Assembly: GCA_020073005.1 (NCBI GenBank)
Contig: JAIQFX010000056.1
Coordinates: forward strand, 1 to 35,388
Length of the DNA stretch: 35,388 bases
Direction of reading: 5' to 3'
From: Terriglobia bacterium
GTDB lineage: Bacteria > Acidobacteriota > Vicinamibacteria > Vicinamibacterales > CAVVIG01
The notes under the pieces were generated by a model. That model did no database searches. It was not told the origin of the DNA and saw only the letters and a list, made by a program, of their open reading frames with translations. This document shows, piece by piece, positions 18,403-34,031 of the stretch (the first letter of the stretch is position 1; each line of letters begins with the position of its first letter). The position numbers and the translations under genes were made by a program.

Positions 18403-19812
18403 TTGCATGTGTCTGCTGGCTCAAAAGCCGGTTCCCGTATTCTCATCGCGTCCGATGATCGCGAGCTGAACGCCGCGCTCGCGGGCCTGCTCTCCGAGCA
18501 CGCCCCGGCCATCGGCGCCGGAGCGCGTCCATCGGTTCTCGCCGACGTCACTTCCAACGAGAGTCTGCGCCTGGTCATCGTCGGCGAGACCTCCGTCGAC
18601 TCCACGGCACTCGACCTGCTGCACGAGATCAAACAGCAGCGGCCCGACGTGGCGGTGCTCCTGCTCAGCGCGCACCCGACGGTCGAGCACGCCGCGGAGT
18701 CGATCCGCCGCGGCGCCGAAGACTTCGTGCCGATTCCGTACTCGGACGCGCTCGTGCTGAAGGAGGTCGCGCGGATCCTCGAAGCGGCCGAACTGCGCGA
18801 CCGGGTCGAGAACCTCGATCAGCTCGTCGCCACCCGGTACGGATTCGAGCGAGTGATCAGCCGTTCGAGCCGCATGCGCGCCGTCTTCGATCGAGCGAAT
18901 GCCGCGTCCCGCAGCGACACGCCGGTGCTGATTGTCGGCGAGACCGGCACCGGAAAGGAGCTCATCGCGCGCGCCATCCACGCCAACAGCCGGCGATCGA
19001 AGCGGCCGTTCGTGCCGATCAACTGCGCCGCCCTGCCGCGGGACCTCGTCGAAAGCGAAATCTTCGGCCATCGGCGCGGCGCCTTTTCCGGCGCGTTCGC
19101 CGATCATGCGGGGTTGTTCGTGGCCGCGCACGGCGGAAGCCTGTTCCTCGACGAGATCGGCGAGCTGCCGCTCGAGGTCCAGGCCAAGCTGCTCCGGGTC
19201 CTGCAGGACGGAGAGGTCCGGCCGGTGGGCGGACTGGAGAGCCGCCGCGTCGACGTGCGGATCATTGCCGCGAGCAACCGCAGCCTGGCCGAAATGCGCG
19301 ACAACCGGATGCGACAGGATCTGTTCTTCCGGATCTCCGTGCTGGTCATCGAGATTCCGCCGCTGCGCGAGCGGCGTGAAGACCTGCCGCTCCTGCTCGC
19401 GCATTTTCTCTCTGTGATACGCGACCGCGGGGCCCGTCACCTCGATGGCATCGATCCACAAGCGCTCGATCTGCTTGCGGACTACGCGTTCCCCGGCAAC
19501 GTCCGCGAGCTCGAGAACATGCTCGAAGGCCTCGTCGTCGTGCTGCCTCCCGATCGCGCCACCATTCGCGCGGAAGACGTCCGTGTCTGGCTGCGTCGCC
19601 GCGGCGCGCCGGTCGGGGACCGGACGAGCGATGCGACGCGCGTCCCGCTCAACCTCAACGATCTCGAGCGGTGGGCGATCGGAGAGGCGCTGCGGCAGTC
19701 GCACGGCAACAAGAGCAAGGCCGCGCACATGCTCGGCATCTCGCGCGACACTCTCTATCGCAAGCTGCACGATCTCGGGTTGGATCCCGAGCTGCCTGCG
19801 TCTCCGGCCTAG
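18403..19812 (+). CDS. Sigma-54 activator (NtrC family) with degenerate receiver domain
   Basis: The protein has three parts in about 469 residues. (1) A receiver-like domain (11-125) keeps the acidic pair (ASDD, 18-19) but has Gly at the phosphoacceptor position (LVIVGE, G61) and Ile instead of the conserved Lys (FVPIPYS, I111), so it probably cannot be phosphorylated. (2) A AAA+ domain has Walker A GETGTGKE (179-186), the sigma-54 contact loop GAFSGA (226-231; usual GAFTGA), Walker [11 protein letters not shown] and the arginine region RQDLFFR. (3) A Fis-type helix-turn-helix ([20 protein letters not shown]) completes it. It should bind upstream sites and open sigma-54 promoters. The start is unsure: TTG 18403 or GTG 18409, with no clear ribosome site. 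No sensor kinase is adjacent. Promoter-like -24/-12 sites occur at 24208, 24421 and 32444. Its stop shares a CTAG with the convergent cytochrome gene. Confidence 0.88.
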
Positions 19813-20408
19813 TGCCCCGGCGTGCCCCGCGGTTCTTCCGCGGGAACCGCGCTCAAGAGGTACGCGACAAGGGCGTCGATATCCGCGTCCGAGAGCTCAC
19901 GTCCCCAGCTGGGCATGTTCAGCGGCGGCTTCGGTCCTTTCGGATCCTTCTTGCCGGCGGGATTCCCGTTGCGAATCACATCTCGTACGGAATGGTACTG
20001 GGCCAGGACCACGTTGAATCGAGGCACGGGTGCCGAGTCTTCCAGAGTGTCGAGACGCACGCCGCGTTTCATCTGATCGAGAATGGCGCTCACGTCTTCC
20101 GGATCGTCGAGCTTCAGCTGTGTCGCCAGGGCCAGACGTGGAATCGTGTCCTTGATGTAGTTCCGGTTCGATATGCCTCCCTGCCCTTCCGGACCGTGGC
20201 AGAGAAAACATCCCTTTTGCCGGAACAGCCACTTGCCCCGCTCCACGACGCCTGCCTGGGCCGGCGCCGGCTCCAGCCAGTACTTGACGACGCTCTGCGG
20301 AGTGTTCTGCGAAGCCGTGGCCGGCGTTCCTGGTGGTTGCGCGAATGCGCTGCTCGCATTGAGCACGGTCGCCAGAACCGCGAGGGGTCGAGCAATTCTG
20401 CTGATCAT
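19809..20408 (-). CDS. Periplasmic monoheme cytochrome c
   Basis: ATG 20408 (GGGG upstream) gives 199 residues with a Sec signal (ISRIARPLAVLATVLNASSAFA). One heme motif, CFLCH, follows GKWLFRQKG, and the axial Met is in NMPSWGRELSDADIDALVAYL, a normal class I cytochrome c. The stretch between them (MKRGVRLDTLEDSAPVPRFN and onward) is longer than in small cytochromes. It is the third gene of the leftward mtrA-mtrB-like operon, 24 nt after the barrel gene. It is therefore a good candidate for the soluble carrier moving electrons between the decaheme protein and inner-membrane partners. The function in the conduit is inferred from position. Confidence 0.88.
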   Translation of the reverse strand: MISRIARPLAVLATVLNASSAFAQPPGTPATASQNTPQSVVKYWLEPAPAQAGVVERGKWLFRQKGCFLCHGPEGQGGISNRNYIKDTIPRLALATQLKLDDPEDVSAILDQMKRGVRLDTLEDSAPVPRFNVVLAQYHSVRDVIRNGNPAGKKDPKGPKPPLNMPSWGRELSDADIDALVAYLLSAVPAEEPRGTPGH

Positions 20409-20432
20409 GATCTGCCCCACAGACACCAGACG

Positions 20433-23129
20433 CTAGAAGTTGAGGACGTACGAAACGCTGACGACGTTCACGCCGAAGTTGAACGGTTGCTCGCTGGTCG
20501 GCAATTGGGCGCTGGCCGATCCGAATTGCATCGCTTCATACATCCAATCGGCGTTGTTCATGTGCAAGTAGGCATAGGCCACGCGCACCCATTGACGCGT
20601 GTTGATCGCGTACTTGCCGCTCACGCGCAGTTCGGCCGTGTCGACGGAGACTGTCGGTAACGGAGTGGCGGGGATGAAATAGGCGGCAATGGCCGTGGGG
20701 GCGGCCCCCGGACCGACGAGAAGATTGTTGGCCCAATTCCCGCCGCTCACGTCGTTGTCCCAGCGCTGCCAGGTGAAGACCAGGTTGCCCGTCAGATCGA
20801 CCTTGCGGGCCTGCTTCCGCAATCCGAACCCCACCGTGTTCACGTGCTCGAGCATGTTCGCGGACCAGTTCAGGCACGGATCCAGCTTGTTATTGTTGTT
20901 GCGCTGTTGCAGCGTCGTGTAGCCGTCGCACCTGTTTCCAGACACGCCGACCGCGGCCGCCTGGCTGTTGGCGAGGGCGGCGACGTTGCTGTTGGCGGTG
21001 TACGTGTTGCCGGCCGTGATGGTGCGCTGATTCTCGTAGGTGTAGAAGACGGTGGCGCTCATGCCGTCGACCAGCGCGTACGTGCCGTCGAGGTTCACGG
21101 CCCAGCCCTTGGCGTTCTGCACGCCGTAGGTCGAGCCGGGGTAGTCGTCGCCGGTCGCATCCACTCCGCCCTGGAGCGACAACTCGTCGGTCGCCTGCCA
21201 GTTCAGCAAGGAGCGAACCTTGTTGCGGTCGCGATCCGCCACGAAGTACCGCCTCATGCCCGGCAGCTCGCTGATCCGGTTGTTGTTCGCGTAGATCGCG
21301 TTGGGCAGCGCGTTGTTGTTCGGGAAGAACACGTTCATGTTCCCCGTCGTGACCGCGTAGGGGAGCGCGGGTCCCCATCCATTCCAGCCGTTGGCGAGCA
21401 TGAAGGAATAGGCGGTCGCGCCGCCTGTCGCGGCGGCGGGGCTGACGTTCGCGTACGGCACGAGCGCCAGAAACGCATTCTCGTTGTAGTCCGGCGCCCG
21501 GCGCGCGGAATACGCGTAGTCGACTCGGACGGAGAGGTCCTCGCCCGCGCTGGTCCGCCATTCGGCACGCAGCGTGTTCTCGTTGGTGGTGGCGGCGTCG
21601 ACGCAGCTGATCCACGCGCCGGAGCAGGCGCGGTCGATCTTCTCGAAGTCGTAGCCGCCTTTGAGCCACTGCCCCTGCGCCACGTTGTAGTCAGCGTCGA
21701 GATTGACGAGGTTCACTTTCTTGCTGTACGGGCGGTTCGCGTTGGCGTTCTGCGCGACCACGGCGCCGTACGGATTGTTCGGACCGGCCGGGAAATTGGC
21801 GTTGGCCGCCGGCGTTTCTTCCGCGTCGGCGAATTGGAAGATGTGAATGGCCGTCCGGTTGTCTCGGTCGTCGTACTTGTACGCGGCGTTCAGCGTCAGT
21901 TTCTTTGCCGGCCGGCTCGTGAGTTTGGCGTTGAACGCCGTCCACACCACCAGCCCGTTCAAGGAGCTCACCGGCACGACGGGCGTCGTGGGGTTCGTGA
22001 TGAACGAGTCGTTCTGCGTATTGCGCGCCAATGATCCGTTGGCGACGAGCTTTGTCGTGGACGAAAAGTTGTAGCCGCCCGACGCATTGACCTGGATGAA
22101 GATGTTGTCCGGCGCGCTGCTGATGGTGTTGACGGTGCCGGACCCGGCCGGACCGGTCGCCCAGTTCTGCCACGTCATGAACGGCACGTTGTTCTTGAAG
22201 AACGAACCGTAATAGCCGACCTGCGCAAACCCCCTGGCGCTCTTGAAATTCAGGTTCGCAGTGACCTGGTTGTGATCGTTGTCGACCAGATCCGGAATGA
22301 CGGTTGAGATGTCGCCGAGGCTTCCGCCGCCCGTGGCCGCGCTGTTCCTCGACACCGTCCCCATCGGCTTCATCCCGTCCTTGTGCTCGGGCTGGAAGTC
22401 CGCGTCGAATCCCCAACGCTCGCTGAAGTTGACGTTGAAGCCCGCATCGTACTTGGTGCGTTTCGTGAACAGGTTCACGTTGTGAAACAGCGGGCCGTCG
22501 GCGCCGGCCGCGGCATCGACGAGGGCGATCTGACCCGCGGTCGGACTGACGATGGCGCCATTGTTGGCCGCTAACGTGCTGATGTACGGTGCGGTGCCAA
22601 TCGACCTGACCAGGCCTCTCGCGCTGATCACGTTGGCGCCGCCGCTTCCAGCCACGGTCGGAACCAGCCACGTTCCGGGCAGCGTGAGCGTATTGGTCCC
22701 CGTGCCGTTGTAAGGCGTCTGATAACTGTCGGATCTGTTCCTCCGCAGCTCGTCGTACCCGAAGTTGATCTGGTACTTGCCCGGCACGCCAGCCTGGGCC
22801 GAGACGTTGCGCGACTCGAGGCCGAGATCGGTGCCCTTGATGCGCCACCGGAACGTGCCGGCGCTGTCGAAGGACGCGCCGCCGCGCAGGTCGACGTTGC
22901 CGAGGAAGTAGGCGCCCTTGTCCTGCAGGCCGTTGTACTCGCCGGCCTTGTACGAGCCCTGGGTGACGTCGCCGACGCCGACCTCGACCGTGCTCGTCGG
23001 CTTGGACAGTTCCTGGGCGCTTTGCGCAGCCGCACGATCTGTGTGGACCGCGAGCGCCATCGCGACGAGCGCGACGCGGAGGGCCACCACCGAAGCCCGG
23101 GCGGAAGATCCATTCGTCTTCGTTTTCAT
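20433..23129 (-). CDS. MtrB/PioB-family outer-membrane beta-barrel
   Basis: The 898-residue protein has a signal peptide (ALRVALVAMALAVHTDRAAA). It then shows the MtrB/PioB pattern: VEVGVGDVTQGSYKAGEYNG, GNVDLRGG, FRWRIKGTDLGLESRN and YQINFGYDELRRNRSDSYQT, followed by many alternating amphipathic strands rich in Tyr and Asn. It ends in FGVNVVSVSYVLNF with a terminal Phe, the signal for BAM-dependent insertion. In Shewanella and Rhodopseudomonas this barrel sheathes a decaheme cytochrome so that electrons cross the outer membrane. Length is greater than MtrB (about 700) and near PioB. The N-terminal CxxC of some MtrB proteins is not present. The decaheme gene lies 22 nt upstream in the same operon. 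No MtrC-like outer cytochrome is encoded nearby. Confidence 0.87.
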   Translation of the reverse strand: MKTKTNGSSARASVVALRVALVAMALAVHTDRAAAQSAQELSKPTSTVEVGVGDVTQGSYKAGEYNGLQDKGAYFLGNVDLRGGASFDSAGTFRWRIKGTDLGLESRNVSAQAGVPGKYQINFGYDELRRNRSDSYQTPYNGTGTNTLTLPGTWLVPTVAGSGGANVISARGLVRSIGTAPYISTLAANNGAIVSPTAGQIALVDAAAGADGPLFHNVNLFTKRTKYDAGFNVNFSERWGFDADFQPEHKDGMKPMGTVSRNSAATGGGSLGDISTVIPDLVDNDHNQVTANLNFKSARGFAQVGYYGSFFKNNVPFMTWQNWATGPAGSGTVNTISSAPDNIFIQVNASGGYNFSSTTKLVANGSLARNTQNDSFITNPTTPVVPVSSLNGLVVWTAFNAKLTSRPAKKLTLNAAYKYDDRDNRTAIHIFQFADAEETPAANANFPAGPNNPYGAVVAQNANANRPYSKKVNLVNLDADYNVAQGQWLKGGYDFEKIDRACSGAWISCVDAATTNENTLRAEWRTSAGEDLSVRVDYAYSARRAPDYNENAFLALVPYANVSPAAATGGATAYSFMLANGWNGWGPALPYAVTTGNMNVFFPNNNALPNAIYANNNRISELPGMRRYFVADRDRNKVRSLLNWQATDELSLQGGVDATGDDYPGSTYGVQNAKGWAVNLDGTYALVDGMSATVFYTYENQRTITAGNTYTANSNVAALANSQAAAVGVSGNRCDGYTTLQQRNNNNKLDPCLNWSANMLEHVNTVGFGLRKQARKVDLTGNLVFTWQRWDNDVSGGNWANNLLVGPGAAPTAIAAYFIPATPLPTVSVDTAELRVSGKYAINTRQWVRVAYAYLHMNNADWMYEAMQFGSASAQLPTSEQPFNFGVNVVSVSYVLNF

Positions 23130-23151
23130 GACGCGCCCCTGACTGATGACG

Positions 23152-24138
23152 TTAGCGATGGAACTTCGAGCCGGCCGGATGATTCGAGCCGTGGATCATC
23201 ACATGGCAGTTCAGGCAGGCGCGCCCGCCCATCTGAACACGCGGGACGGCCGCTCCCGGCTGCTGCATGCCATTGGTGGTGGTTACGTTGCCGCCCGCCA
23301 GATTGGCGCCGCTGTTGACCTGATTGCCATGGTCGCCGCTGTGACACTGCTGGCACAGCCACGGCGGGCGCGCCTTCAGCAGCGGCGCGTTGGCCGAGCC
23401 GTGCGGCGTGTGGCAGTTGGTGCAATCGTCAGTCACGGGCGCGTGCTCCCAGAGGAACGGGCCGCGTCGTTCCGGATGGCACGTGTAGCAGGTCTCGTTG
23501 ACCGAGTTCTTGATGAGCAGCTTCGGACCCGTCGAGCCGTGCGGGTTGTGGCAGTCCGAACACGTCATCTTGGCCGTGCTTGCCAGGCTGGTCACGGCCA
23601 ACGGGTGGGTCGAGAGGCGACGAGTTTGAGCGCGCTGCGCTTTGTGGCAGGCGAAGCAGACCTCGGCCTGGGTCGCCTTGCTTAGTACCTTTTGGTCCGG
23701 CGCGTGGATGCTGTGGCAGTCGCTGCAGGCCACGCCCCGGCTTTCATGCGGGCTCCCTGTCCAGTTCTTCCGCGGGAGAGCGCTCGTCTCGTGACACTGG
23801 AGACACGCGGCGCTCCGTTGCGCGGCTGGCGCGGGATCCCGCTTCGTGAACGCGATGAAGGGGCTGAGCCGCTGAGCGCCCGCGGACGCCACGTGCGCCG
23901 CGGCTGGCCCATGGCACGCCTCGCAGGCCAACGCCTCTTTGTCGTTTCGCGGGCTCTTCAGGAAGATCGCTCCCATCTTGGTCGCGGCGAACGCCTCGAA
24001 TTGCTTCGGGTGGCAGCGCATGCACGGCTCCGCACCGCCGACGTAACCGCTCGGTGTCTGCGGCTGGGCAAGAGTCGAGGAGGGCACGAACAGCGCGGGC
24101 ACGAACGCCATTAAGTAAAGGAGTCGCGATGGCTTCAC
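23152..24138 (-). CDS. Decaheme c-type cytochrome, MtrA/DmsE family
   Basis: The 328-residue protein starts at GTG 24138 (GGAAGG seven bases upstream) and has a Sec signal (YLMAFVPALFVPSSTLA). Ten CxxCH motifs are visible in order: CMRCH, CEACH, CLQCH, CSDCH, CFACH, CSDCH, CYTCH, CTNCH, CQQCH and CLNCH. The spacing and phrases such as MTCSDCHNPHGS, ETCYTCHPERRGPFLWEHAPV and DCTNCHTPHGS are those of MtrA, PioA and DmsE. MtrA fills the MtrB barrel and forms a heme wire across the outer membrane. With the barrel gene 22 nt downstream this makes a porin-cytochrome conduit. The direction of flow, toward an external acceptor or from an external donor such as Fe(II), is not set by the sequence. A -24/-12 site lies upstream. 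Confidence 0.95.
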   Translation of the reverse strand: MKPSRLLYLMAFVPALFVPSSTLAQPQTPSGYVGGAEPCMRCHPKQFEAFAATKMGAIFLKSPRNDKEALACEACHGPAAAHVASAGAQRLSPFIAFTKRDPAPAAQRSAACLQCHETSALPRKNWTGSPHESRGVACSDCHSIHAPDQKVLSKATQAEVCFACHKAQRAQTRRLSTHPLAVTSLASTAKMTCSDCHNPHGSTGPKLLIKNSVNETCYTCHPERRGPFLWEHAPVTDDCTNCHTPHGSANAPLLKARPPWLCQQCHSGDHGNQVNSGANLAGGNVTTTNGMQQPGAAVPRVQMGGRACLNCHVMIHGSNHPAGSKFHR

Positions 24139-24223: not shown

Positions 24224-24321
24224 CGTGGATTTGATGTTTTACCGTGAGAAGTCAGCGGCGACCGGCGCGATCGCTCGTGAATGCCCGATTCTCTGACACA
24301 TGCTGCAAGTTCCTGGAAGCG

Positions 24322-24365
24322 CGGACGTTGTTCCACGTGTGTCGGACAAGCGGACAGACAGTCCG
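24322..24365. promoter_or_regulatory. Cluster of CGGAC repeats between the divergent promoters
   Basis: CGGAC occurs at 24322, 24343 and 24351 on the plus strand. The last copy forms an inverted repeat with GTCCG at 24361-24365 (CGGAC-N5-GTCCG). The first two are 21 bases apart, two helical turns. The cluster lies between the two -24/-12 sites at upstream-activator distance, so it is a candidate binding site. Apart from these sites the 345-base region 24139-24483 holds only three CACGTG-type hexamers and no gene. Confidence 0.35.
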
Positions 24366-24420: not shown

Positions 24421-24436
24421 GGGCCCGTTTGTTGCT
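24421..24436 (+). promoter_or_regulatory. Candidate sigma-54 promoter of the cupredoxin/bc-type operon
   Basis: GGGCCC-GTTTG-TTGCT fits the -24/-12 consensus with correct GG-N10-GC spacing. The -12 half is perfect; the first T of TGGCAC is G. The predicted start near 24446 leaves a leader of about 38 bases with AAGGAG before ATG 24484. The site at 32444 has the same -24 hexamer and almost the same distance to its gene. Confidence 0.55.
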
Positions 24437-24483
24437 CTGCAGACGAAGGTAGTGAAGGTGAGCTTCGCTCGAAGGAGATGCGC

Positions 24484-25092
24484 ATGACCCGCCACTCGAT
24501 TCTTTTCGTTGTCATCGCTGCGGCAATCCTCGTCGCGCCAGTCGGACCGCTCAACGGGGCCGGCGCCAGCATCGCAGGAACCGTCAAGGTGACGGGACTG
24601 GCGACGAGCGCAGACGTCGTGGTGTACGTCCAGGAGGCGCCCGGGACTTTTCCTCCCGGCAAACCTGTGGTGATGGATCAGAAGAGCATGCAGTTCATCC
24701 CGCACGTGCTTCCCGTGGTCGCGGGAACGGCAGTGAAATTTGTGAACAGCGATCCGACGCCGCACAACGTCTTCTCGCCCGACAACGAGAAATACAACCT
24801 CGGCACGTGGCCGCAGGGTCAGTCCAAGGATTACACCTTCAACAAGTGCGCGAAGCCGCCCTGCGTGTACACGCAGCTCTGCAAGGTTCACCCGGAGATG
24901 GAGGGCTACATCGTCGTGCTGCAGAACCCGTATTTCGCGGTCACTGACAAGGCCGGGCACTACGAGATCGCCAACGTGCCGCCGGGCAACTACACACTCG
25001 CCGTGTGGCACACGAGAACCAAGGCACAACCGAAGCCGGTGACCGTCGAGGCCGCCAAGCCGGCCACGGTCGACTTCGTGCTCGCGCGCTGA
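24484..25092 (+). CDS. Exported cupredoxin with C-terminal carboxypeptidase-regulatory-like domain
   Basis: ATG 24484 is preferred because AAGGAG is six bases upstream; the ATG at 24478 abuts it. The product has 202 residues with a Sec signal (ILFVVIAAAILVAPVGPLNG). The central domain is a blue-copper fold: His94 in PTPHNVFSP and Cys133, His136 and Met139 in LCKVHPEM supply a full type 1 copper site. The tail (KAGHYEIANVPPGNYTLAVW) is a small carboxypeptidase-regulatory-like beta domain. Such proteins carry single electrons in the periplasm, for example between cytochromes. It is the first gene of the rightward respiratory operon, 13 nt before the FAD/Fe-S oxidoreductase. It may therefore be the soluble donor or acceptor for that complex, which is an inference. 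Confidence 0.88.
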   Translation: MTRHSILFVVIAAAILVAPVGPLNGAGASIAGTVKVTGLATSADVVVYVQEAPGTFPPGKPVVMDQKSMQFIPHVLPVVAGTAVKFVNSDPTPHNVFSPDNEKYNLGTWPQGQSKDYTFNKCAKPPCVYTQLCKVHPEMEGYIVVLQNPYFAVTDKAGHYEIANVPPGNYTLAVWHTRTKAQPKPVTVEAAKPATVDFVLAR

Positions 25093-25105
25093 CGAGGTTG
25101 ACACG

Positions 25106-27016
25106 ATGCCTTCGCGCGAGTACTCGGCGGTCGTCCCGGACTTCCGGTACTTTCTCGATCTGATTCCCTGCCGGGCGACGTGTCCGGTCCGCACCAACGC
25201 GGGCGGGTACGTTCGAGCCGTCGCCGAAGGCGACACGGAGCGTGGCTATCGGATTGCCCGCGCGCCGAACCCGCTGGCGTCGATTTGCGGCCGCATCTGC
25301 GCCCATCCGTGCGAGACGAAGTGTCGGCGCGGCGTCATCGATCAGCCGATTTCGATCCGCGCGCTGAAGCGGACGTTGACCGAGCGGCACGGGGTCGAAA
25401 ACGCGCTCAGCGCCCAGCCGATTCCGCTCCGGCCGCTGCAGCTGGCCGTCGGGGGCGCCGACGGCGCGGCTCGCGTCGGCATCGTGGGCGCCGGTCCGGC
25501 CGGCCTCAGTTGCGCGCACGATCTGGCGCTGCTCGGGTATCGCGTGACGCTGTTCGATGCCGCGCCCGTCGTCGGCGGCATGTTGTATCAGGGCGTGCCC
25601 GAGTACCGGCTGTCGCGCGATCTGATTCGCGCCGAAGTCGATCAGATCCTGGCGCTGGGCGTGGAGTTGAAGCTGGACTGGCGCCTCGGCCGCGACTTCA
25701 CGGTGAGCGACTTGCGTCGCAACGGCTACGCCGCGGTCTTCCTCGCGCTCGGCGCGTCGCGGGGCCGCGACTTGAACATCCCGGGCAAGGATCTCGACGG
25801 TGTCGTCAACGGCGTCGACTTTCTGCTGAACGCCAATCTGGGTTACCGGGTCGCGCTGGGCGAGCGCGTGATCGTCATCGGCGGCGGCAACGTCGCCATC
25901 GACGTCGCGCGGACGGCCCTTCGCTACGCGGCAGCCGAGGAGCGGCCCGACCTCTCGAGGGACGCCGAACACCTGCTCCAGACGTGGGGCTATGACAACG
26001 CGTTCATCGACGCCGCGCGAACCGCCCTGCGGCTCGGCGCGCGGCACGTGCAGCTGGTTTCGCTCGAATCACGCGCGCAGATGCCCGCGCACCCGGACGA
26101 GGTCCGCGAGTCGGAGGAAGAAGGCATCACGCTCACGTCGGGCCTGGGCCCGAAGGCGATCATCGGAAAGAACGGGCGCGTCACCGGGCTCCTGACGCTC
26201 GACGTGGCGTCGCTCTTCGACGCCAACGGCCGCTTCAGCCCCTCCTTCGTGCCGAACACCGAGCGCGAATTCGACGCGGACACGATCATCCTGGCCGTGG
26301 GCCAGCAGTCCGACACGAGCTGCCTCTCGGCGGACCCCGACATCACCATCACCCCCCGCGGCCTGGTCGCGGTCGATCCTCGGACACTCGTCACAACGAT
26401 GCCGGGCGTGTACTGCGGCGGCGACCTGGCGTTCGGGCCGCGCATCGTGATCGAGGCGGAGGCTGACGGCAAGCGGGCGGCGCTGGCGATTCACGAGTCC
26501 CTGGGCGGCGGGACGGTGCCGCGCGTGCAGGCGCGCTTCCGGCCGATCGTGTTGGACCGCGCCGGCGATCGCTACGATCGCATCCCGCGCCAGAGCGTGC
26601 CGACGTTGCCCGTCACGCGCCGCACCGGGTTCCGTGAAGTGGAGGAAGGCTACGGCGACGAGCAGGCCCGCCTCGAAGCGTCGCGTTGTCTCTGGTGCAA
26701 CGTCGAGACCATCTTCGATTCCGAGCGCTGCATCCTCTGCAGCGGCTGCGTCGAGATTTGTCCAGAGGCCTGTCTCGCGCTCGTGCCGGCGTCGCGCCTG
26801 CAGTCCTCGGCGGCGATCGATGCCGTGTGTGAATCGCTCGGCGCCGGAGCCGATGCCGGCGCCATCGTCAAAGATGAAACGCGCTGCATCCGGTGCGGTC
26901 TGTGTGCCGAGCGGTGTCCGACGGGCGCGATCACGATGGAAGCGCTCGAAATCGACGAGTCGCCGCAGACCGCGCTCGGGCTCTACCACGAATCGATGAG
27001 CGGGGCATCGGTATGA
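25106..27016 (+). CDS. GltD/NfnB-like FAD-NAD(P) oxidoreductase with [4Fe-4S] domains at both ends
   Basis: The 636-residue cytoplasmic-type protein has three parts. An N-terminal Fer4_20 domain has Cys at 22, 26, 61, 65, 69 and 73 (CRATCPVRTNAGGYV, CGRICAHPCETKCRRG). A GltD-type two-nucleotide fold has the FAD site GAGPAG (128-133), the NAD(P) site VIVIGGGNVAIDVA (255-268) and CGGDLAFG at the FAD C-terminus. The C-terminal domain has CLWC at 528-531 and two ferredoxin motifs, CILCSGCVEIC (542-552) and CIRCGLCAERC (594-604). Two clusters per end are expected. GltD relatives pass electrons between NAD(P)H, FAD and Fe-S partners. No glutamate synthase large subunit is here. Instead the gene overlaps the Rieske gene (ATGA), so it likely couples NAD(P)H to the Rieske/cytochrome b complex. 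Oxidoreductases of this sort are reported with Rieske/b complexes in anammox bacteria. Confidence 0.85.
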   Translation: MPSREYSAVVPDFRYFLDLIPCRATCPVRTNAGGYVRAVAEGDTERGYRIARAPNPLASICGRICAHPCETKCRRGVIDQPISIRALKRTLTERHGVENALSAQPIPLRPLQLAVGGADGAARVGIVGAGPAGLSCAHDLALLGYRVTLFDAAPVVGGMLYQGVPEYRLSRDLIRAEVDQILALGVELKLDWRLGRDFTVSDLRRNGYAAVFLALGASRGRDLNIPGKDLDGVVNGVDFLLNANLGYRVALGERVIVIGGGNVAIDVARTALRYAAAEERPDLSRDAEHLLQTWGYDNAFIDAARTALRLGARHVQLVSLESRAQMPAHPDEVRESEEEGITLTSGLGPKAIIGKNGRVTGLLTLDVASLFDANGRFSPSFVPNTEREFDADTIILAVGQQSDTSCLSADPDITITPRGLVAVDPRTLVTTMPGVYCGGDLAFGPRIVIEAEADGKRAALAIHESLGGGTVPRVQARFRPIVLDRAGDRYDRIPRQSVPTLPVTRRTGFREVEEGYGDEQARLEASRCLWCNVETIFDSERCILCSGCVEICPEACLALVPASRLQSSAAIDAVCESLGAGADAGAIVKDETRCIRCGLCAERCPTGAITMEALEIDESPQTALGLYHESMSGASV

Positions 27017-27477
27017 CCAAGAAAGACGTGTTGCCGGATCCGGTGCGGCGCAGCATGTTTGCGATCGGCTGCATCGCCGTCGGCGCCGCGACGGCGGGTT
27101 TTCTCGCTGCGACGTTCCGATTTCTGGTGCCGAACGTCCTCTACGAGCCGTCGCGGAGGTTCGACATCGGGCCGCCGTCGGATTTCCCGCCAGGCGCGGT
27201 CACGTTCCTGCCTGACCGGCGGCTGTACGTGTTCAACGGACCCGACGGCTTCTACGCGATCTCGTCCATCTGCACGCATCTGGGCTGCAACGTGAAGCGT
27301 GGCGGGCCGGGATTCGAATGTCCGTGCCACGGCAGCCGGTTCGACGAGAACGGTCAGGTCGCGCAGGGACCCGCGCCCAAGGCGCTGGCCTGGTACGCGC
27401 TGAGCCTTTCACCACACGCGCAGCTCGTGGTCGACCTCGATCAGCAAGTGAGTCCCGAGTTTCGGCTTCGGGCGTGA
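27013..27477 (+). CDS. Rieske [2Fe-2S] protein
   Basis: The 154-residue protein starts at ATG 27013 within the previous stop codon. One N-terminal membrane helix (MFAIGCIAVGAATAGFLAATF) anchors the cluster domain outside the membrane. There is a double Arg (VRRSMF) that could serve TAT export, as for many Rieske proteins. The cluster ligands are in CTHLGC (87-92) and CPCHGS (103-108), both canonical, with the disulfide cysteines C92 and C105 present. It takes electrons from quinol bound at cytochrome b and passes them to cytochrome c. The cytochrome b gene follows after nine bases. Confidence 0.95.
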   Translation: MTKKDVLPDPVRRSMFAIGCIAVGAATAGFLAATFRFLVPNVLYEPSRRFDIGPPSDFPPGAVTFLPDRRLYVFNGPDGFYAISSICTHLGCNVKRGGPGFECPCHGSRFDENGQVAQGPAPKALAWYALSLSPHAQLVVDLDQQVSPEFRLRA

Positions 27478-27486
27478 GGAGACTGT

Positions 27487-28740
27487 GTGAGCCAGACGAT
27501 CGGGAGCCGGACGCTGACGTGGCTTGACGGCGCGCGCCGTTCCGTCTGCCGCATCGGCTGGCCCGCAACGGACAAAGATCGCGCCGCGGCGATGATCTCG
27601 AGCCTCTTCCTGCACATCCATCCGGCGCGGGTCAGCCGCCACGTGCTGAAGCCGACCTACACGTTCGCGCTGGGACTCATCTCGGGGATTCTCTTCATCG
27701 TCCTCGCCGTCACGGGGCTGGCGCTGATGCTCTACTACGTGCCGTATCCGCCCGAAGCGTACCGGAGCATGAAGGATCTGCAGTTCGTCGTCACGTTCGG
27801 GATCGTGCTTCGCAACATTCATCGCTGGTCGGCTCACGCGATGGTCGGAGTCGTCTTCCTGCACATGTGCCGGGTGTTCTGGACTGGCTCGTACAAGCCG
27901 CCACGCGAGTTCAATTGGGTCATCGGCGTCGTGCTATTGCTGCTGACGCTTGGCTTGTCGTTCACCGGATATCTGTTGCCGTGGGATCAGCTGGCGTTCT
28001 GGGCCATCACGGTCGGCACCAACATCGCCGCGTACGCGCCCGTGGTCGGGGATCAGGTGAAGTTCCTGCTGCTCGGCGGTCACATGATTGGCCCGATGAC
28101 GTTGCTGCGTTTCTACGTCCTGCACTGCGTGATGCTGCCGCTCGCGATGCTGCTGCTCATCTCTCTGCATGTGTGGCGGGTGCGCAAGGACGGACTGAGC
28201 GGCGCCGAGATCCATGCGTCGCCCACCGAGGAGCTGGCCGGTGCGTTCCCGGCGTCCACCAAGACGTACGGACTCATGGCGATCGGCAAGCGGCCACGAG
28301 CGTCGGTCGAGGCGCGCGATCCCAACGATGAAGTGTTCGCCTGGCCTCACCTGCTGTACCGGGAGCTGCTGGTTGCCCTGGCCGTGATCATCGTGCTGCA
28401 CATCGTCTCGCTCGTGTTCATGGCCCCGCTCGAGGAGATCGCGGATCCGACGCGCACGCCGAACCCGGCCAAGGCGCCCTGGTACTTCCTGGGTCTGCAG
28501 GAGCTGGTGCACTACTCGGCGCTGATGGGCGGCGTGATCGTGCCGACGCTGCTCGTGCTGGCGTTGCTGGCGGTTCCCTACGTCGATCGGGGCGCGGCGG
28601 GATCCGGCCGATGGTTCGCGCCGGAACGGAAGATGGCGAACACGATCTTCACCTCGCTTGCGGCCGTCTTCGTCGTCCTGACGATCGTCGGCACACTATT
28701 CCGCGGAGCCAACTGGGCATGGGTGTGGCCGTGGAAGTAA
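27487..28740 (+). CDS. Fused cytochrome b (b6 plus subunit IV) of a bc-type complex
   Basis: The 417-residue protein starts at GTG 27487 with AGGAG five bases upstream. It carries the eight-helix cytochrome b core in one chain. The heme ligands lie in helix B ([19 protein letters not shown]-x13-H) and helix D ([12 protein letters not shown]... to SLHVW, H-x14-H). The H-x14-H spacing is that of cytochrome b6 rather than mitochondrial b. The quinol-site motif PEWY reads APWY ([18 protein letters not shown]), so the usual catalytic Glu is absent. This replacement is, as far as I recall, common in fused bc proteins of Acidobacteria, Nitrospira and Planctomycetes. It oxidises or reduces membrane quinone with the Rieske protein upstream. 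The next gene overlaps its end by 22 bases. Confidence 0.93.
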
Positions 28741-30743
28741 GGAACACCGCGCCACCCCGGCTGCATCTCGTGTTCGCCGGCCTCGGGCTTGCGTTCCTCG
28801 TGATCTTCTCGTGGGTGCTCTTTCACGAGGGCGCGGCGGAATGGCGAACGACGCAGGCGCGTTTCCGTCGGCTCGAGACGACGGTCAAGAACCCGCACCA
28901 GCTCGCGCAGGCGGCGGGCGTCGGCGGCCTGCGCCAGATCTGGCTGCCCGATCTCGGGCGCGTCGATCGCTGCGAAACGTGCCACCTCGGGATCGACGAT
29001 CCTGCATTCGCGCGCGCGCCGGCCCCGTTCGCCGCGCACCCCGGCACCTGGCTGTCGACGCATCCCACCGATCGATTCGGCTGCACGCCGTGCCACGACG
29101 GCCAGGGGCAGGCGACCGACTACGCCACCGTGGCACATCAGCCGCAGCCGTTCGTGACGCGGCCGATGCGCCCGCTCGAGACCATCGAAGCGAATTGCGG
29201 GGTGTGCCACCGCGCGCTCGATCCGCCAGACGCCCCGCGCCTCGCCGAGGGCCGACGGCTGATCGTCGAGTCGGGCTGCTTCAGTTGCCATGAGATTCCA
29301 GGCTTCGAGGGGATGACGTTCAGAGGCCCGTCGCTGGACAGCATCGGGTACAAGGTCCGGCCCGCCTGGCTGACGTCCTGGCTGAAGGATCCCAAAGGCT
29401 ATCTCCCGCAGTCGAAGATGGGCAACTTCCGCCTGTCCTCCGACGAGATCGGGAGCCTGCAGGGTTTCCTGCTCTCGCAGCGTGCGCAAGTGCCGCTCGA
29501 CAGCACAGGCGTCGATTGGAAGAAGGCGGACACGGCCAACGGGCGCGCCTTGTTCGGCGAGCTCCGGTGCGTCAGTTGCCACGCGGTCAACGGACGCGGC
29601 GGCACGGCGGGGCCCGAGTTGACGCGCATTGGGGACAAGGTGCGGCGCGACTGGCTCTTCAGCTACCTGAAGGATCCACATCGTGTGCAGGCGGACACGC
29701 CGATGCTGCAGTACCGCCTGAGCGATCCGCAATGGCGGGATGTCACGGCGTTCCTGCTCGAGCAATACAGCTCGGCCGACACCGGCGCCGAGCCGCCACC
29801 CGTGACGTACCAGGACGCGCGTGTGCTGGCGGCGGGGCGCGCCGTGTTCGAGCGCCGTGGCTGTCCGAGCTGTCATCGCCTTGCGGCCATCAAAGACGCC
29901 GGACGCATCGGCCCCAGTCTGGCGGGCATTGCCGATCGCGATCCGGACGAGCTGCCGTACGGCACGAACGTGGTCCGCCACACGACCGACAATTACATCT
30001 TCCTGAAAGTGCTGTTGCCCGACACGCTCGGCCAGACCTCGACGATGCCGACGTTCGCGTTTACGCCGGCCGACGCCGCCAAGATCGCCCTGGCGCTCGC
30101 CAGTATCAGGAAGACGGATCTGCCGGCGTCCTACGTTCTTCGCCGTCCGGCGCCCGTGCCATATCGGCCTGGCGGCAAGTTTGGCGAACTGGTCGCGCGC
30201 TATCGGTGTCTGAGCTGCCACACGGTCGGGGGATTCGGGGGCGACCTGTCGACCGTGCCGCTGGACCGGATTGGCAGTCAGCTCCAGCGCGACTACCTCG
30301 TGAAGTACCTGCTCAATCCAGGAGCCGTGCGCGTCAGCGTCGAAGCGCGCATGCCCGTTTTCCACATGTTGCCCGACGAAGCGAAGACGATCGCCGACTA
30401 CTTCTCTATGGTCTTCCTCGACGACGGCGTCGAGCAGTACGACACGAGGTTCACCGCCGAAGAGGCGCGCCGCGGGCAGGAGCTCTACGGGCAGCTCGGA
30501 TGTCAGGCGTGCCATCAGCTCGGGACCAAAGGTGGTTACGTGGGACCGGAGCTGTCAGAGACCGGCGCCCGGCTGAGGCCCGGCTGGATCGCGGCGTGGC
30601 TTTCGAAGCCTCAGATCTACAAGCCCGGCACGCTGCAGCCGGATTACGGACTCTCGGGCGCGGATGCGCGGGCGCTCACGGCGTACCTCACGAGTCTGGG
30701 CCGGAGCCCTGCCGCGAAGGCGCGCGGAGGGAATGCGCAATGA
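28719..30743 (+). CDS. Membrane-anchored octaheme cytochrome c with class I modules
   Basis: The 674-residue protein starts at ATG 28719, inside the cytochrome b gene. One membrane helix ([21 protein letters not shown]) precedes eight heme motifs: CETCH, CTPCH, CGVCH, CFSCH, CVSCH, CPSCH, CLSCH and CQACH. The first three sit close together without class I framing. The last five each head a class I-like module with a repeated G-P-x-L-x-x-I-G ... W-L-x-x-W/Y-L-x-x-P core. Axial Met candidates are visible in four of these (KMGNF, PMLQY, TMPTF, RMPVF), but the fifth has GTLQPDYG and seems to lack one. It should take the place of cytochrome c1 or f as the electron outlet or inlet of the Rieske/b complex. 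Confidence 0.9.
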
Positions 30744-31168
30744 CGAACCGCACTTGGCACGCGGTGGCGGTGGCGGTGGTGGCGCTCGCGAGCACGGTTG
30801 GCTGCCGAACCGGTCCGCCGTCCCAGCCAGGCGATCCGATGCTTAATGCGATCCGGGCCGAAGAGCGCGAAGGGAATCTGACCTATGTTGAGAGCCAGGG
30901 CCGGCGGCTGTTCCTCCACTATTGCGCGACCTGCCATGGCGATGACGCGCGAGGCGACGGTCAGAACGCGTCGAACTTGAGCCCGGCGCCGCCGGACATG
31001 ACGGCGAGGACGTCGCAGGATCCCGCACTGATCAGACGCGTGATCGCCGAAGGCAGCGCCGCCGTCGGACGATCGCCGCTGTCTCCGCCATGGGGGCGCA
31101 GTCTCAGCCAACAGCAGATCGACTACCTGGTTGCGTATTGTCAATCGATAGGCCGGAAGAAGCCCTGA
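30740..31168 (+). CDS. Monoheme cytochrome c lipoprotein
   Basis: The 142-residue protein starts in the previous stop codon (ATGA). The lipoprotein signal ends at STVGC. One heme motif follows (LFLHYCATCHGDDARGDG) in a class I fold ending QQQIDYLVAYCQSIG. Where relatives have M-P-P-W-G as axial ligand region, this reads LSPPWG, so the Met ligand appears to be missing or replaced. This resembles the small cytochromes that accompany alternative complex III and bc-type clusters. It is probably tethered on the periplasmic face as the next carrier after the octaheme protein. Confidence 0.87.
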   Translation: MTNRTWHAVAVAVVALASTVGCRTGPPSQPGDPMLNAIRAEEREGNLTYVESQGRRLFLHYCATCHGDDARGDGQNASNLSPAPPDMTARTSQDPALIRRVIAEGSAAVGRSPLSPPWGRSLSQQQIDYLVAYCQSIGRKKP

Positions 31169-31211
31169 GATTCCGCTAGTCGAAACGGCGCTCGCGATGG
31201 AGGGGCGGTAC

Positions 31212-32192
31212 GTGAAGCTGCTTCCGCGAACGTTGAGCGCTCTCTTCATTGTGCTGGCGATCGGCGCGGGAGCCGGCACGGTGTGGTTCTTCGTCCGTTA
31301 CCCGAGGTCGGCTCCTCCTCGCACGATCTCCATCCACGTCAGCGCCGCGCTCATCGAGCGCGGCCGCTATCTGGCCAACCACGTCGCGGTCTGCGTGGAC
31401 TGCCATTCCACGCGCGACTGGAACGCGTTCTCAGGCCCGATCGTGCCGGGAACGGAAGGCGCTGGCGGGGAACGGTTCGACAAGGAGCTCGGGTTCCCGG
31501 GCACATTCTACGCGGCCAACATCACGCCAGCGGGCCTCAGCCAATGGAGCGATGGCGAGATCCTCAGGGCGATCACGGCCGGCGTCACGCGCACGGGAAG
31601 AGCGCTGTATTCCGTCATGCCCTATCCAAGCTATCGCGCGCTCTCTGAAGGCGACGCGGAGGCCATCGTCGCGTACATCAGGACGCTGACACCGGTCTCC
31701 CGTGAGATTCCCCCGTCCCAACTCGATTTCCCCATGAACGTGCTGGTCCGAACGCTTCCAGAGCCGTATGCGCCGAAGCCGTCTCCGGATCGCAGCAGTC
31801 CAGTCGCCTACGGCCGCTATCTGACGACGATCGCGCGCTGTCCCGTGTGTCACACCCGCTCCGAACGCGGCACGCCGATCCAAGGCATGGAATTCGCCGG
31901 CGGAGTCGACTTCGACGTTCCTCTGGCGGGCCGCGTCCAGTCCGCCAACATCACTCCAGATTCTGAAACAGGTATCGGAGACTGGCCCCTCACCTTCTTC
32001 ATCGCACGTTTTCGCGATCCGACTTCAGCGCGAACACAGCGGCTTCCTCTGCGGGATCGGCGCTCTAATACGGTGATGCCATGGACGATGTTTGCGGGGA
32101 TGACGGACGAGGACCTCGGCGCGATCTACGCGTACCTTCGAACGGTCAAGGCTGTCAGGAATCAGGTCGCGCGATTTTCCGGTCCGAGCTGA
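31212..32192 (+). CDS. Membrane-anchored diheme cytochrome c
   Basis: GTG 31212 is favoured because GGAGGGG lies six bases upstream; ATG 31197 overlaps that ribosome site. The product is 326 residues with an N-terminal helix (LSALFIVLAIGAGAGTVWFF). Two class I domains follow: CVDCH with axial Met in VMPYPSYRALSEGDAEAIVAY, and CPVCH with VMPWTMFAGMTDEDLGAIYAY. Both domains share the NITP element (AANITPAGLSQWSDGEILRAI / SANITPDSETGIGDWPLTFFI) found in cytochrome subunits of sugar and alcohol dehydrogenases. Here no dehydrogenase gene is adjacent, so it more likely joins the bc-type chain as a carrier. The gap of 43 bases to the preceding gene suggests the same operon. Confidence 0.85.
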   Translation: MKLLPRTLSALFIVLAIGAGAGTVWFFVRYPRSAPPRTISIHVSAALIERGRYLANHVAVCVDCHSTRDWNAFSGPIVPGTEGAGGERFDKELGFPGTFYAANITPAGLSQWSDGEILRAITAGVTRTGRALYSVMPYPSYRALSEGDAEAIVAYIRTLTPVSREIPPSQLDFPMNVLVRTLPEPYAPKPSPDRSSPVAYGRYLTTIARCPVCHTRSERGTPIQGMEFAGGVDFDVPLAGRVQSANITPDSETGIGDWPLTFFIARFRDPTSARTQRLPLRDRRSNTVMPWTMFAGMTDEDLGAIYAYLRTVKAVRNQVARFSGPS

Positions 32193-32220
32193 AGTGGACG
32201 AGACCGGGAGACCGGTCAAG

Positions 32221-32261
32221 GTGCCGGAAATCCGCCGCTTTCAGTACCGCATGTCCGGCAC
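32221..32261. repeat. Inverted repeat after the diheme cytochrome gene
   Basis: GTGCCGGA (32221-32228) and TCCGGCAC (32254-32261) pair perfectly with 25 bases between. It lies 29 bases after the stop codon. It may be an RNA hairpin ending the operon or the end of a decayed mobile element; no T-tract follows. Confidence 0.35.
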
Positions 32262-32266
32262 TTATG

Positions 32267-32473
32267 TAAGAGGACAATTAGATTCTGAGAACTCCGTGGC
32301 GCTCCAACGCTCCGCGTCCCGCAAACTCGACGATGACTCGCTCTCGACGCAGCTCCTAGTCCCCTGTTGATTCAGCACTTAACGGATTCCGTCAGTCGCC
32401 TCTCCCTCTCGCCGGTCCGTCGGCGACGCGGACAGAGTCAATTGGGCCCTGGTCTTGCCATAAGAGGACAACT
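32267..32473. repeat. Direct repeat TAAGAGGACAAYT in the cytochrome-porin upstream region
   Basis: TAAGAGGACAATT (32267-32279) recurs as TAAGAGGACAACT (32461-32473), 194 bases apart. The second copy lies at the predicted transcription start of the cytochrome-porin gene. I see no gene in the 315-base interval 32193-32507. It could be two operator copies or end sequences of a decayed insertion. Confidence 0.4.
32444..32459 (+). promoter_or_regulatory. Candidate sigma-54 promoter of the cytochrome-porin gene
   Basis: GGGCCC-TGGTC-TTGCC has correct GG-N10-GC spacing and the same -24 hexamer as the site at 24421. The distance to the start codon is 64 bases here and 63 there. The predicted start is near 32470. 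Confidence 0.5.
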
Positions 32474-32507
32474 GGGCCTCGCACCGGCGAGGTCGGAGGG
32501 AGATGAC

Positions 32508-33923
32508 ATGATGAGATCCAGGCCGTTTCAGTTCGTCGTTCGCGTGGGCCTCGTTGCGCTGGCGTTCTTCACCGCCGTGTCGACGGCGGACGCCGTGCCC
32601 GCATTCGCACGCAAGTACCAAACGAGCTGTCAGACGTGCCACATCGTCTTTCCGAAGCTCAATGCGTTCGGCGAGGCCTTCCGGCTGCGCGGCTACCGCA
32701 TGCCGGGCGAGACGGCGGACATGGTGAAGGAGCCGCCGGTCAGCCTCGGCGCGCCCGCGTACAAGAAACTGTGGCCGGACTCGGTCTGGCCCGGCGAAAT
32801 TTCGAGCGCGGTTCCGCTCGCCGTGAACGTCAAGCTCGGCTACGTCAACACCTCGACGCTCAACGAGGATGGGACCGTGACGTCGGTGAAGAACGATCTC
32901 CAGTTCCCGCAGGAGGTGAACATCTTCGGGGCCGGGACGCTGGGCGACCACGTCTCCTATCTCGCCGAGATGACGTTCGGAGAGAACCCCGATGGGTCGG
33001 TCGCGGTCGAGCTCGAGCACGCCCGCGTCGACTTCGACTCGCCGTTCGGTCCCGAGGATCTCTTCCACTTCCGCCTGGGCAAGTTCGCCCCCAACGTCGC
33101 CGACGGCTTCCAGGAGATGTGGATCTCGACCGACGCCGCGATCGATTCGCTGTTCGCCTACAACCCGATCGGCGCCAACGGCGGCACCGGCCTCGCGGGC
33201 GACATGACGCCGTCGCCGATCGCGCTGCCCGATCGCGTGCGCGGCATCGAGGGCTACGGGATGATCAACCACCGCGCGCTGTGGGTGGCGGGCATCGCCA
33301 ACGGCGTGGGGCCGGGCCCCGGCGACACGACGGGCCGCTTCGACGGCAACAACGCGAAGGACGTCTACGCGCGCTTCGACTACAAGATCGGCGGCATGGG
33401 GCTCGACGGCGACATGGGCGGCCGCCAGGCGCCGGAGAAGAACTGGCGCGACGACTCGCTGCGCCTCGGCGTCTTCGCGTACCGCGGCGACGCCAGCAAC
33501 ATCAACTTTCCGCTCACGACCGAGGACGGCCAGAACACCAATATTCAGGACGCGCATTTCCTGCGGAGCGGCCTCTACGCGAGCCTCTTCTTCAAGGATC
33601 TGAACGTCTTCGGCGTCTACCTGCACGGGAGCGACTCGCTTCAGACCTTCGATGCCGGGACGGCCGCGCTCCTGGGCACGATCGAGCCGGACTTCCACGC
33701 GTGGTTCACGCAGGCGGACTACCTCGTCTACCCGTGGCTGCAGGGGTCGTTCCGGTACGAGACGGTGACGCCGGCCGATCCGTCCGTGCCGAGCCTGCGC
33801 ACCGGCGTGTTCAACGCGAGCGCGCTGATTCGCGCGAACGTGAAGTTCATGGTGGAGTACCAACGCGATCTGCGCGAAGGCGACAACCACTCGCTGAACG
33901 CGCTGCTGCGATTCGCCTTCTGA
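32508..33923 (+). CDS. Outer-membrane monoheme cytochrome-porin fusion, Cyc2-like
   Basis: The 471-residue protein starts at ATG 32508 (GGAGGG seven bases upstream; a second ATG follows at once). A Sec signal ends near STADA. The mature N-terminus is VPAFARKYQTSCQTCHIVFP followed by KLNAFGEAFRLRGYRMPGE: a single CxxCH (41-45) in a P-A-F-A-R ... C-x-x-C-H ... P-x-L-x-x-F-G-x-x-F-x-x-x-G-Y frame. That frame and the length match Cyc2, the iron-oxidising fused cytochrome-porin of Acidithiobacillus and Zetaproteobacteria. The remaining 400 residues are alternating strands ending in LNALLRFAF with a terminal Phe, a porin barrel. Many uncharacterised proteins share this architecture, so iron oxidation is only a hypothesis. 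It lies downstream of the respiratory operon under its own candidate promoter. Confidence 0.72.
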   Translation: MMRSRPFQFVVRVGLVALAFFTAVSTADAVPAFARKYQTSCQTCHIVFPKLNAFGEAFRLRGYRMPGETADMVKEPPVSLGAPAYKKLWPDSVWPGEISSAVPLAVNVKLGYVNTSTLNEDGTVTSVKNDLQFPQEVNIFGAGTLGDHVSYLAEMTFGENPDGSVAVELEHARVDFDSPFGPEDLFHFRLGKFAPNVADGFQEMWISTDAAIDSLFAYNPIGANGGTGLAGDMTPSPIALPDRVRGIEGYGMINHRALWVAGIANGVGPGPGDTTGRFDGNNAKDVYARFDYKIGGMGLDGDMGGRQAPEKNWRDDSLRLGVFAYRGDASNINFPLTTEDGQNTNIQDAHFLRSGLYASLFFKDLNVFGVYLHGSDSLQTFDAGTAALLGTIEPDFHAWFTQADYLVYPWLQGSFRYETVTPADPSVPSLRTGVFNASALIRANVKFMVEYQRDLREGDNHSLNALLRFAF

Positions 33924-33950: not shown

Positions 33951-33965
33951 GTGCAAATATTGCAC
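33951..33965. promoter_or_regulatory. Palindrome before the carboxylesterase gene
   Basis: GTGCAA-ATA-TTGCAC is a perfect inverted repeat 67 bases before the esterase start and 28 bases after the cytochrome-porin stop. It is shaped like a repressor or activator operator. No matching regulator gene is visible in the window. Confidence 0.4.
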
Positions 33966-34031
33966 AAAGAGCCGTTCACGTCGCGAGGTGACGGAGACTC
34001 GGCAATTCGGGCTACGCACAGGGGGATGGCT

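Follow-up and report, generated by a model that had tools for sequence, protein, structure and literature searches.

The stretch of DNA examined here, called the window in what follows, comprises the 35,388 nucleotides of contig JAIQFX010000056.1 from an Acidobacteriota bin (Terriglobia bacterium, assembly GCA_020073005.1), a placement with which an ADOP permease match agrees. Near its right end lies a gene (32508..33923, plus strand) whose product, P0001, is by its sequence a monoheme cytochrome-porin of the Cyc2 superfamily, and whose conserved partner in the Acidobacteriota is an operon for a cupredoxin and a Rieske/cytochrome b complex, not the MtrAB genes with which a first-pass annotation, in which these partners were missing, had coupled it. 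The frame runs complete and uninterrupted from the ATG at 32508 to the TGA ending at 33923 (471 aa), has a ribosome-binding-like ggaggga just 5' of the ATG, and encodes a hydrophobic, signal-like N-terminus that ends in A-D-A (by inspection) and a C-terminus, ...LLRFAF, with a terminal Phe. Its single heme motif, CQTCH, is set in the string AVPAFARKY-QTS-CQTCH-IVF-PKL. In Keffer 2021 (PMC8406198; here, as for the other papers given by PMC number, we refer to passages of the text rather than to the whole), the Cyc2 signature consists of AXPXFAR[Q/K][T/Y], CXXCH and PXL with a minimum of 365 aa; P0001 has AVPAFARKY before its only CXXCH, PXL four residues after it (CHIVFPKL), and more than that length. 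Porin matches are present in 107 of 396 Acidobacteriota genomes (E<=1e-5), full-length relatives being 81% and 75% identical and a same-genus relative 91%; for this reason the frame cannot be put down to chance, and a frameshift artefact was likewise rejected, as the frame is kept in relatives up to 91-94% identical. The protein matched no family in Pfam or NCBIfam and no sequence in the PDB (best E 0.067), and a plasmid search gave a single weak match, in Methylocystis.

Upstream of the porin and on the same strand lies the operon (24484-32192). Its first gene (24484..25092) encodes a cupredoxin with a C-terminal carboxypeptidase-regulatory-like domain (Pfam Copper-bind and CarboxypepD_reg) and the ligands His..Cys-x2-His-x2-Met; this His/Cys/His/Met copper pattern is kept in 48 of 48 cupredoxin tblastn matches, four of which are repeats from overlapping loci. 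There follow a GltD-like FAD/NAD(P) oxidoreductase with an Fe-S (ferredoxin-like) domain (25106..27016; NCBIfam PRK12771, 447.9 bits against a cut-off of 516, all matches among the 25 of 136 families listed being below their curated cut-offs), a Rieske iron-sulfur protein (27013..27477; motif CTHLGC..CPCHGS, NCBIfam Rieske families below cut-offs) and a cytochrome b with its b6 and subunit-IV parts in one chain (27592..28740; Pfam Cytochrome_B and Cytochrom_B_C, ExtP/ExtQ-like matches below cut-offs). The remaining genes encode an octaheme c-type cytochrome (28719..30743; eight CXXCH, Pfam Cytochrom_C, a hydrophobic N-terminus by inspection, with SoxX and CXXCH_TIGR02603 passing the curated NCBIfam cut-offs), the monoheme c-type cytochrome CytC1 (30740..31168; one heme motif) and the diheme CytC2 (31197..32192; two heme motifs), the last of which has a full-length match beside the operon in genome G454 only and short or weak matches in L032 and L142. 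By composition only, this clustering of a Rieske protein, cytochrome b/subunit IV, hexa- or octaheme c and NAD(P) oxidoreductase is that of the anammox-type complexes. The source genome also holds another operon with oxidoreductase, Rieske, cytochrome b and multiheme c genes, which is about 45% identical (G000:C145, L221, 9887-14727), and no porin or cupredoxin match was found in that stretch.

To place P0001 among the Cyc2 proteins, two hidden Markov models (HMMs) were used. The Cluster 1 HMM comprised 21 Gallionellaceae proteins from 30 genomes of the family of a Gallionella sp. record, labelled according to the descriptions in PMC7029218 and PMC8406198 and not according to FeGenie; the FARQTG HMM comprised 77 FARQT(G) proteins from at least 80 loci in named genomes, a set without any Acidithiobacillus sequence and called cluster-2-like on account of the neighbours named in PMC10654088. 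P0001 scored 51 bits to Cluster 1 and 84 bits to the cluster-2-like HMM, and the two sets scored each other with medians of 69.5 and 82.2 bits. Its barrel alone, without the heme part, still reached 25.4 bits with the FARQTG HMM and 10.9 with that of Cluster 1, against 4.9 at most for reversed controls. A comparison of the profiles of 30 FARKY proteins, which carry the motif of P0001, and 48 FARQTG proteins gave 99.8% over 386 columns; barrel-only profiles scored 60.0 for FARKY/FARQTG (93% probability) and 59.1 for FARQTG/Cluster 1, and those of FARKY and Cluster 1 aligned over just 64 columns. Motif, length, HMM and profile comparison thus bear out the resemblance to Cyc2 that had first been noticed in the heme-bearing N-terminus, the 471-residue length and the terminal-Phe barrel, and for P0001 they do so with the barrel included.

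Membership of either cluster was not upheld. In a tree of 53 proteins (11 of 21 from Cluster 1, 20 of 77 FARQTG, three of the four FARQTG proteins from a second batch of loci, 18 of 47 FARKY, and the porin of L212), the FARKY set stood apart at 99/97, Cluster 1 at 100/100 and all FARQTG proteins at 100/99 (drawn open). The Gallionellaceae and FARKY sets occupy separate branches, so that Cluster 1 is rejected, and the tree rejects the cluster-2-like FARQTG set in the same way. Because FARKY is separated from both, P0001 is, as far as its sequence allows it to be placed, a member of a third, FARKY branch of the Cyc2 superfamily, third being meant relative to Cluster 1 and the cluster-2-like set; it may or may not coincide with the published Cluster 3, to which one Acidobacteriota Cyc2 and three from other phyla have been assigned by others (PMC9671151). 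With Cluster 1 it shares a signal-like N-terminus, AXPXFAR, one CXXCH, PXL, a fused barrel and a terminal aromatic residue, but it differs in having FARKY..CHIVFP in place of FARQTG..CHFQHFP, in its separate clade and in its score of only 51 bits. With the FARQTG homologues (Ralstonia, Paraburkholderia, Acidipila and others) it shares detectable barrel homology and, in some Acidobacteriota, the same operon partners, although identity to the porin is about 20-26% and the clade is again separate. The L212 protein (G428, Gallionellaceae), a FARKY-type porin, sits beside the FARKY set on a long branch. In this genome the porin gene (L212/L236) lies behind a match resembling the regulator and is followed by frames for two monoheme cytochromes and a tetraheme one, and no MtrA or MtrB match was found in the 19 kb fetched around L212. 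In L101, from a metagenome-assembled genome (MAG) of the Natronospirales, two Cyc2-type genes, at 3493 and 9099, lie less than 6 kb apart.

The linkage of porin and operon recurs in relatives. The neighbourhood sample covered 20 of the 21 best porin places outside the source genome, each with up to 20 kb of surrounding DNA (G317:C296, at a contig edge, being left out). The cupredoxin gene adjoins the porin in 19 of these loci, and in the exception the contig breaks off 0.2 kb past the porin; genes for Rieske and cytochrome b come after porin/cupredoxin in 14, the GltD-like oxidoreductase is present in 12, and a match to the window's response regulator adjoins the porin or lies one gene off in six. 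When the best 41 oxidoreductase places are taken as the starting point, a porin match is found within 10 kb on the same contig in 32, and a 33rd, in G273, has a FARQTG porin detected by its motif. A second batch of 20 loci, biased because chosen mostly by the oxidoreductase, has a porin match in 17. The operon's porin in G055, G007 and G273 (L079, L082 and L087) is a FARQTG Cyc2 that falls in the FARQTG part of the tree, and in G007 and G273 it has the same far-end position in the operon that the porin has in the window. Among the 80 FARQTG loci listed, Rieske and cytochrome b lie beside Cyc2 in ten, nine of these having an octaheme-like match too; the ten are made up of nine of the 11 loci labelled Acidobacteria, Acidobacteriaceae, Granulicella or Acidipila and one Syntrophobacteraceae MAG. 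The nine acidobacterial loci (L140, L146, L151, L152, L155, L156, L164, L169 and L170) have a FARQT(G) Cyc2 followed by Rieske and cytochrome b, with an octaheme-like match in all except L170; since no cupredoxin and no NAD(P) oxidoreductase match was found in them, we take them as a looser parallel. Acidipila rosea, a culturable acidobacterium, has this form with Cyc2, Rieske and cytochrome b. In L147 (8426-11147) an acidobacterial FARQTG Cyc2 has cupredoxin-like matches on both sides.

The family relationship, the conservation of the operon, the second Cyc2 branch within the same operon and the ligand motifs are observations, and from them we lean, slightly, towards reading the porin as the outer-membrane part of a conserved electron-transfer module through which a dissolved outside partner, most likely Fe2+, would deliver electrons to the cupredoxin. 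In the route that we infer, of which the substrate, the direction and the direct contacts are all predictions, a small dissolved redox partner would enter the pore and reduce the heme on the periplasmic side; the heme electron would pass to the co-encoded cupredoxin, in the role of rusticyanin in Acidithiobacillus. The monoheme and octaheme cytochromes would carry it on to the Rieske/cytochrome b complex with its NAD(P)-FAD-FeS subunit, and a downhill branch from the cupredoxin to a terminal oxidase is presumed as well. The MtrAB pair of the window would then serve as a second conduit, for solid or larger partners. Two grounds favour transfer inward, from Fe2+: the Cyc2 proteins that have been characterized oxidize Fe(II) (PMC8406198), and porin, copper carrier and bc complex have a parallel in Acidithiobacillus. 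The Cyc2 of Mariprofundus has been tested by expressing it in E. coli. The Cyc2-rusticyanin-bc1 route of Acidithiobacillus ferrooxidans likewise has an outer-membrane monoheme porin, a blue-copper carrier and a bc complex (PMC10654088), but there cyc2 shares the rus operon with cyc1, cup and cox genes and bc1 is encoded by the pet operon, whereas in the window the porin, the cupredoxin and an NAD(P)-linked octaheme complex lie in one cluster. For the complexes Kustd1480-1485 and Kuste4569-4574 of Kuenenia, formation of NAD(P)H by electron bifurcation has been proposed (PMC12954380); these also combine a Rieske protein, a b6-like cytochrome b plus subunit IV, a hexa-/octaheme c and an NAD(P) oxidoreductase with Fe-S, whereas the window has the cytochrome b parts in one chain and linked to a cupredoxin and an outer-membrane porin.

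Cyc2 in Acidobacteriota has already been reported from annotation (PMC10367259, PMC9671151 and PMC8446621), and among the open-licence papers listed for Cyc2 with Rieske, cupredoxin, cytochrome bc, FeGenie or Acidobacteriota no title or abstract opening describes this operon. Many Cyc2 homologues occur in organisms without known iron metabolism, where their role is an open question; the operon, found in many acidobacterial families, ties the porin to a defined copper carrier and membrane complex and thus offers a specific route that can be tested. It further hints at what the outside partner of such NAD(P)-linked Rieske/cytochrome b complexes could be, and it suggests that acidobacteria with the porin cluster trade electrons with iron in solution, or with something similar, in their surroundings. 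We propose further, as a tentative and rather doubtful extension, that Cyc2-type porin, blue-copper protein and NAD(P)-linked, possibly bifurcating Rieske/cytochrome b complex form a self-contained module in Acidobacteriota. If so, iron outside the cell, or a partner like it, would be linked to quinone and NAD(P)H without complex I as a separate step, and the component at the outer membrane would be swappable between two Cyc2 branches and perhaps MtrAB.

Several findings weigh against an Fe2+-fed porin module of this kind. No RuBisCO match was found in the source genome, so that Calvin-cycle autotrophy is not indicated, and an autotrophic iron oxidizer using that cycle was rejected. The reference proteins available include none of the FARKY branch with demonstrated iron oxidation. 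Porin and complex are not obligate partners, since the complex is absent from the stretch in six of the 20 porin loci, of which two lie close to a contig end, and nine of the best 41 oxidoreductase places lack a porin match inside 10 kb. Unlike the barrel of P0001, the median FARKY barrel reaches no more than 0.3 bits with the cluster-2-like HMM (the best 28.6), so that for many FARKY porins kinship is visible, in this single-sequence test, just in the heme part. The structure model of P0001 is also poor: the AlphaFold2 prediction, made with 46 distant rows only, has a mean pLDDT of 59.7 and 13 strands behind the heme domain, too uncertain a picture to fix the strand number, for which 16 had been expected, and its PDB matches (50 listed, with TM by query length of 0.17-0.34, a CirA model first and many of the others general porins) prove little. 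The modelled relative from Ralstonia pickettii, L103, has a pLDDT of 88.3 and 16 strands behind the heme domain, and its PDB matches are mostly general porins (OmpF, OmpT), with AlgE too. The outer-membrane position of P0001 itself is presumed.

The strongest competing reading is transfer in the outward direction, given the likeness of the complex to a bifurcating one and the lack of a RuBisCO match in the genome. In such a module the complex would oxidize quinol and bifurcate, one electron going to NAD(P)+ and the other by way of the Rieske protein, octaheme c and cupredoxin to the porin and a high-potential outside acceptor (such as chelated Fe(III) or Mn(III/IV)). Taken as a whole we think this rather unlikely. 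MtrAB types serve in metal reduction elsewhere, which suits it, but ferric oxides at neutral pH are too low in potential to accept electrons from a Rieske-level donor. A genome with no RuBisCO match would fit a heterotroph disposing of electrons, and the make-up of the operon matches anammox complexes proposed to bifurcate, one of them still without any suggestion as to the reaction that drives it (PMC12954380); the characterized Cyc2 proteins, however, oxidize Fe(II).

The same cupredoxin route could instead be fed by another small redox molecule (for instance Mn2+, Cu+, a sulfur or nitrogen compound), as in the Manganitrophaceae, where Cyc2 is counted among the candidates for oxidizing Mn(II); the genes identified in the 18.4-33.9 kb part of the window point to no specific non-iron substrate, and we regard this as improbable. 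Least probable of all, in our judgement, and by a long way from being expected, is a protective, sensing or structural heme domain (outer-membrane iron detoxification, for example) whose linkage to the operon would reflect shared regulation only. Detoxification has been raised for Cyc2 (PMC8446621) and sensing for the Cyc2 of strain ES-1 (PMC12016527), but two distinct Cyc2 branches share the same operon and the cupredoxin ligands are kept in all 48 matches, which points to electron transfer. The Cyc2 signature and the cupredoxin linkage likewise argue against a porin with no electron-transfer role. In view of the operon, cyc2 by itself should be used with caution as a marker of iron oxidation in acidobacteria.

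The first-pass annotation had described the porin as next to an MtrAB-type operon. The MtrAB genes are genuine: an MtrA/DmsE-type decaheme cytochrome c (23152..24138, minus strand; ten CXXCH; TIGR03508, 277.5 bits, cut-off 192.2) and an MtrB/PioB-type outer-membrane barrel (20433..23129, minus strand; TIGR03509, 369.3 bits, cut-off 240.05) both exceed their family cut-offs, as expected of an MtrAB conduit, and a small monoheme c-type cytochrome (19809..20426, minus strand; one CXXCH read in translation) lies behind MtrB. They are not adjacent to the porin, however, but 8.4 kb off on the opposite strand, with the operon 24484-32192 in between. Among the porin stretches of the 20 relatives, none has an MtrA or MtrB match (E<=1e-5), and MtrB, present in 72 of 396 genomes of the phylum, occurs with a porin match in 26, which is not clearly above chance (odds ratio 1.7, p=0.058); on both counts a conserved pair of P0001-type porin and MtrAB was rejected. 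Nor is the coexistence of the two routes new, because Sideroxydans lithotrophicus ES-1 has Cyc2 and MtoAB together (PMC12016527). What survives of the co-occurrence that had seemed noteworthy is found in the same-genus genome G450, where on contig C55 (L235) a monoheme porin of another branch is preceded, at 1.7-5 kb, by an MtrAB pair, one more 10-heme gene and a match resembling MtrB. This porin (17949-19415, 488 aa, motif FARKF) is 30% identical to that of L212 over 505 columns, and its resemblance to P0001 lies chiefly in the heme part. In L080, from the second batch, an 11-heme frame 2.1 kb before the porin gives a weak match to MtrA (24%). Because of these two cases, monoheme porins may have a looser link with multiheme genes. 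The decaheme and large barrel at 20433-24138 are thus what the window has in common with MtoAB/PioAB/MtrAB systems, but the conduit is separate from the porin and was not found beside this operon in the 20 loci, G450 or G454. Two further MtrB genes are present in the source genome, on C88 and C11, the former (L220) belonging to a second MtrAB pair, about 60% identical. A search of 162 genomes found close relatives of MtrB in four others, and no Rieske or cytochrome b match was found in the surroundings of three of these.

Left of the MtrAB genes lies an NtrC-type sigma-54-dependent response regulator (18403..19812, plus strand; family matches, among the 25 of 50 listed, below curated cut-offs), whose counterpart adjoins the porin in G450, G442, G143 and G285. 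The order in G450 is regulator, porin, cupredoxin, oxidoreductase, Rieske, cytochrome b, octaheme c and CytC1, and no MtrAB match was found in the 36 kb fetched of this operon stretch. At the DNA level the window and G450 are 91.8% identical in the regulator and 92.9% in the porin (from codon 8), but 80.8% in the bc block (24471-31164), which is 79.0% identical to that of G143, from another family; G450 and G143 are 79.5% identical over porin and block together. Including CytC2, the bc block is 84.9% identical to that of G454 (family f10) over 7.65 kb, and G454's own porin is just 33% identical to the window porin. The block 19813-32528, between regulator and porin, would thus have a history unlike that of its flanks and resembles an operon replacement or insertion. 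On the simplest reading of these alignments, MtrBA and a bc operon of foreign type would now part the regulator from a native porin that was retained. The apparent rearrangement may also be a mis-assembly of the bin (completeness 100, contamination 4.63). Directly 3' of the porin, in the place that the cupredoxin gene has in relatives, stands a carboxylesterase gene (33951-35387) with a twin-arginine-like N-terminus (by inspection), truncated by the contig end.

Similar promoter sites had also been noted for the porin and the MtrAB genes. GG-N8-TTGC elements do stand before the porin, the operon and MtrA: a sigma-54-like -24/-12 element, GGCCCTGGTCTTGC, 5' of the porin (32445..32458, plus strand; at -63, chance 0.025), a sigma-54-like promoter, GGCCCGTTTGTTGC, of the operon (24422..24435, plus strand; at -62, chance 0.06), which aligns with G450, G143 and G442, and a site 5' of MtrA (at -84, chance 0.055). 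Their likeness as promoter sites has weak support, however, and the element is common in the window, with 26 sites against 19.4 expected, a number that six of 100 shuffles reached; it occurs in nine of 31 other porin promoters, where 2.4 are expected. The region 5' of the porin also has two exact copies of TAAGAGGACAA (32267-32277 and 32461-32471, plus strand), 194 bp apart, and none of 100 shuffles gave two. Two weaker palindromes resembling regulator sites lie 5' of the cupredoxin gene, at 24282 and 24340 (24282..24356, plus strand; at most three mismatches), two matches against 0.67 expected, as many as 12 of 100 shuffles reached. The palindrome TGTCAGAnnnTCTGACA together with GG-N8-TTGC is common to G450, G143 and G442 5' of the porin, and the counterpart of these signals in the window aligns upstream of the cupredoxin gene.

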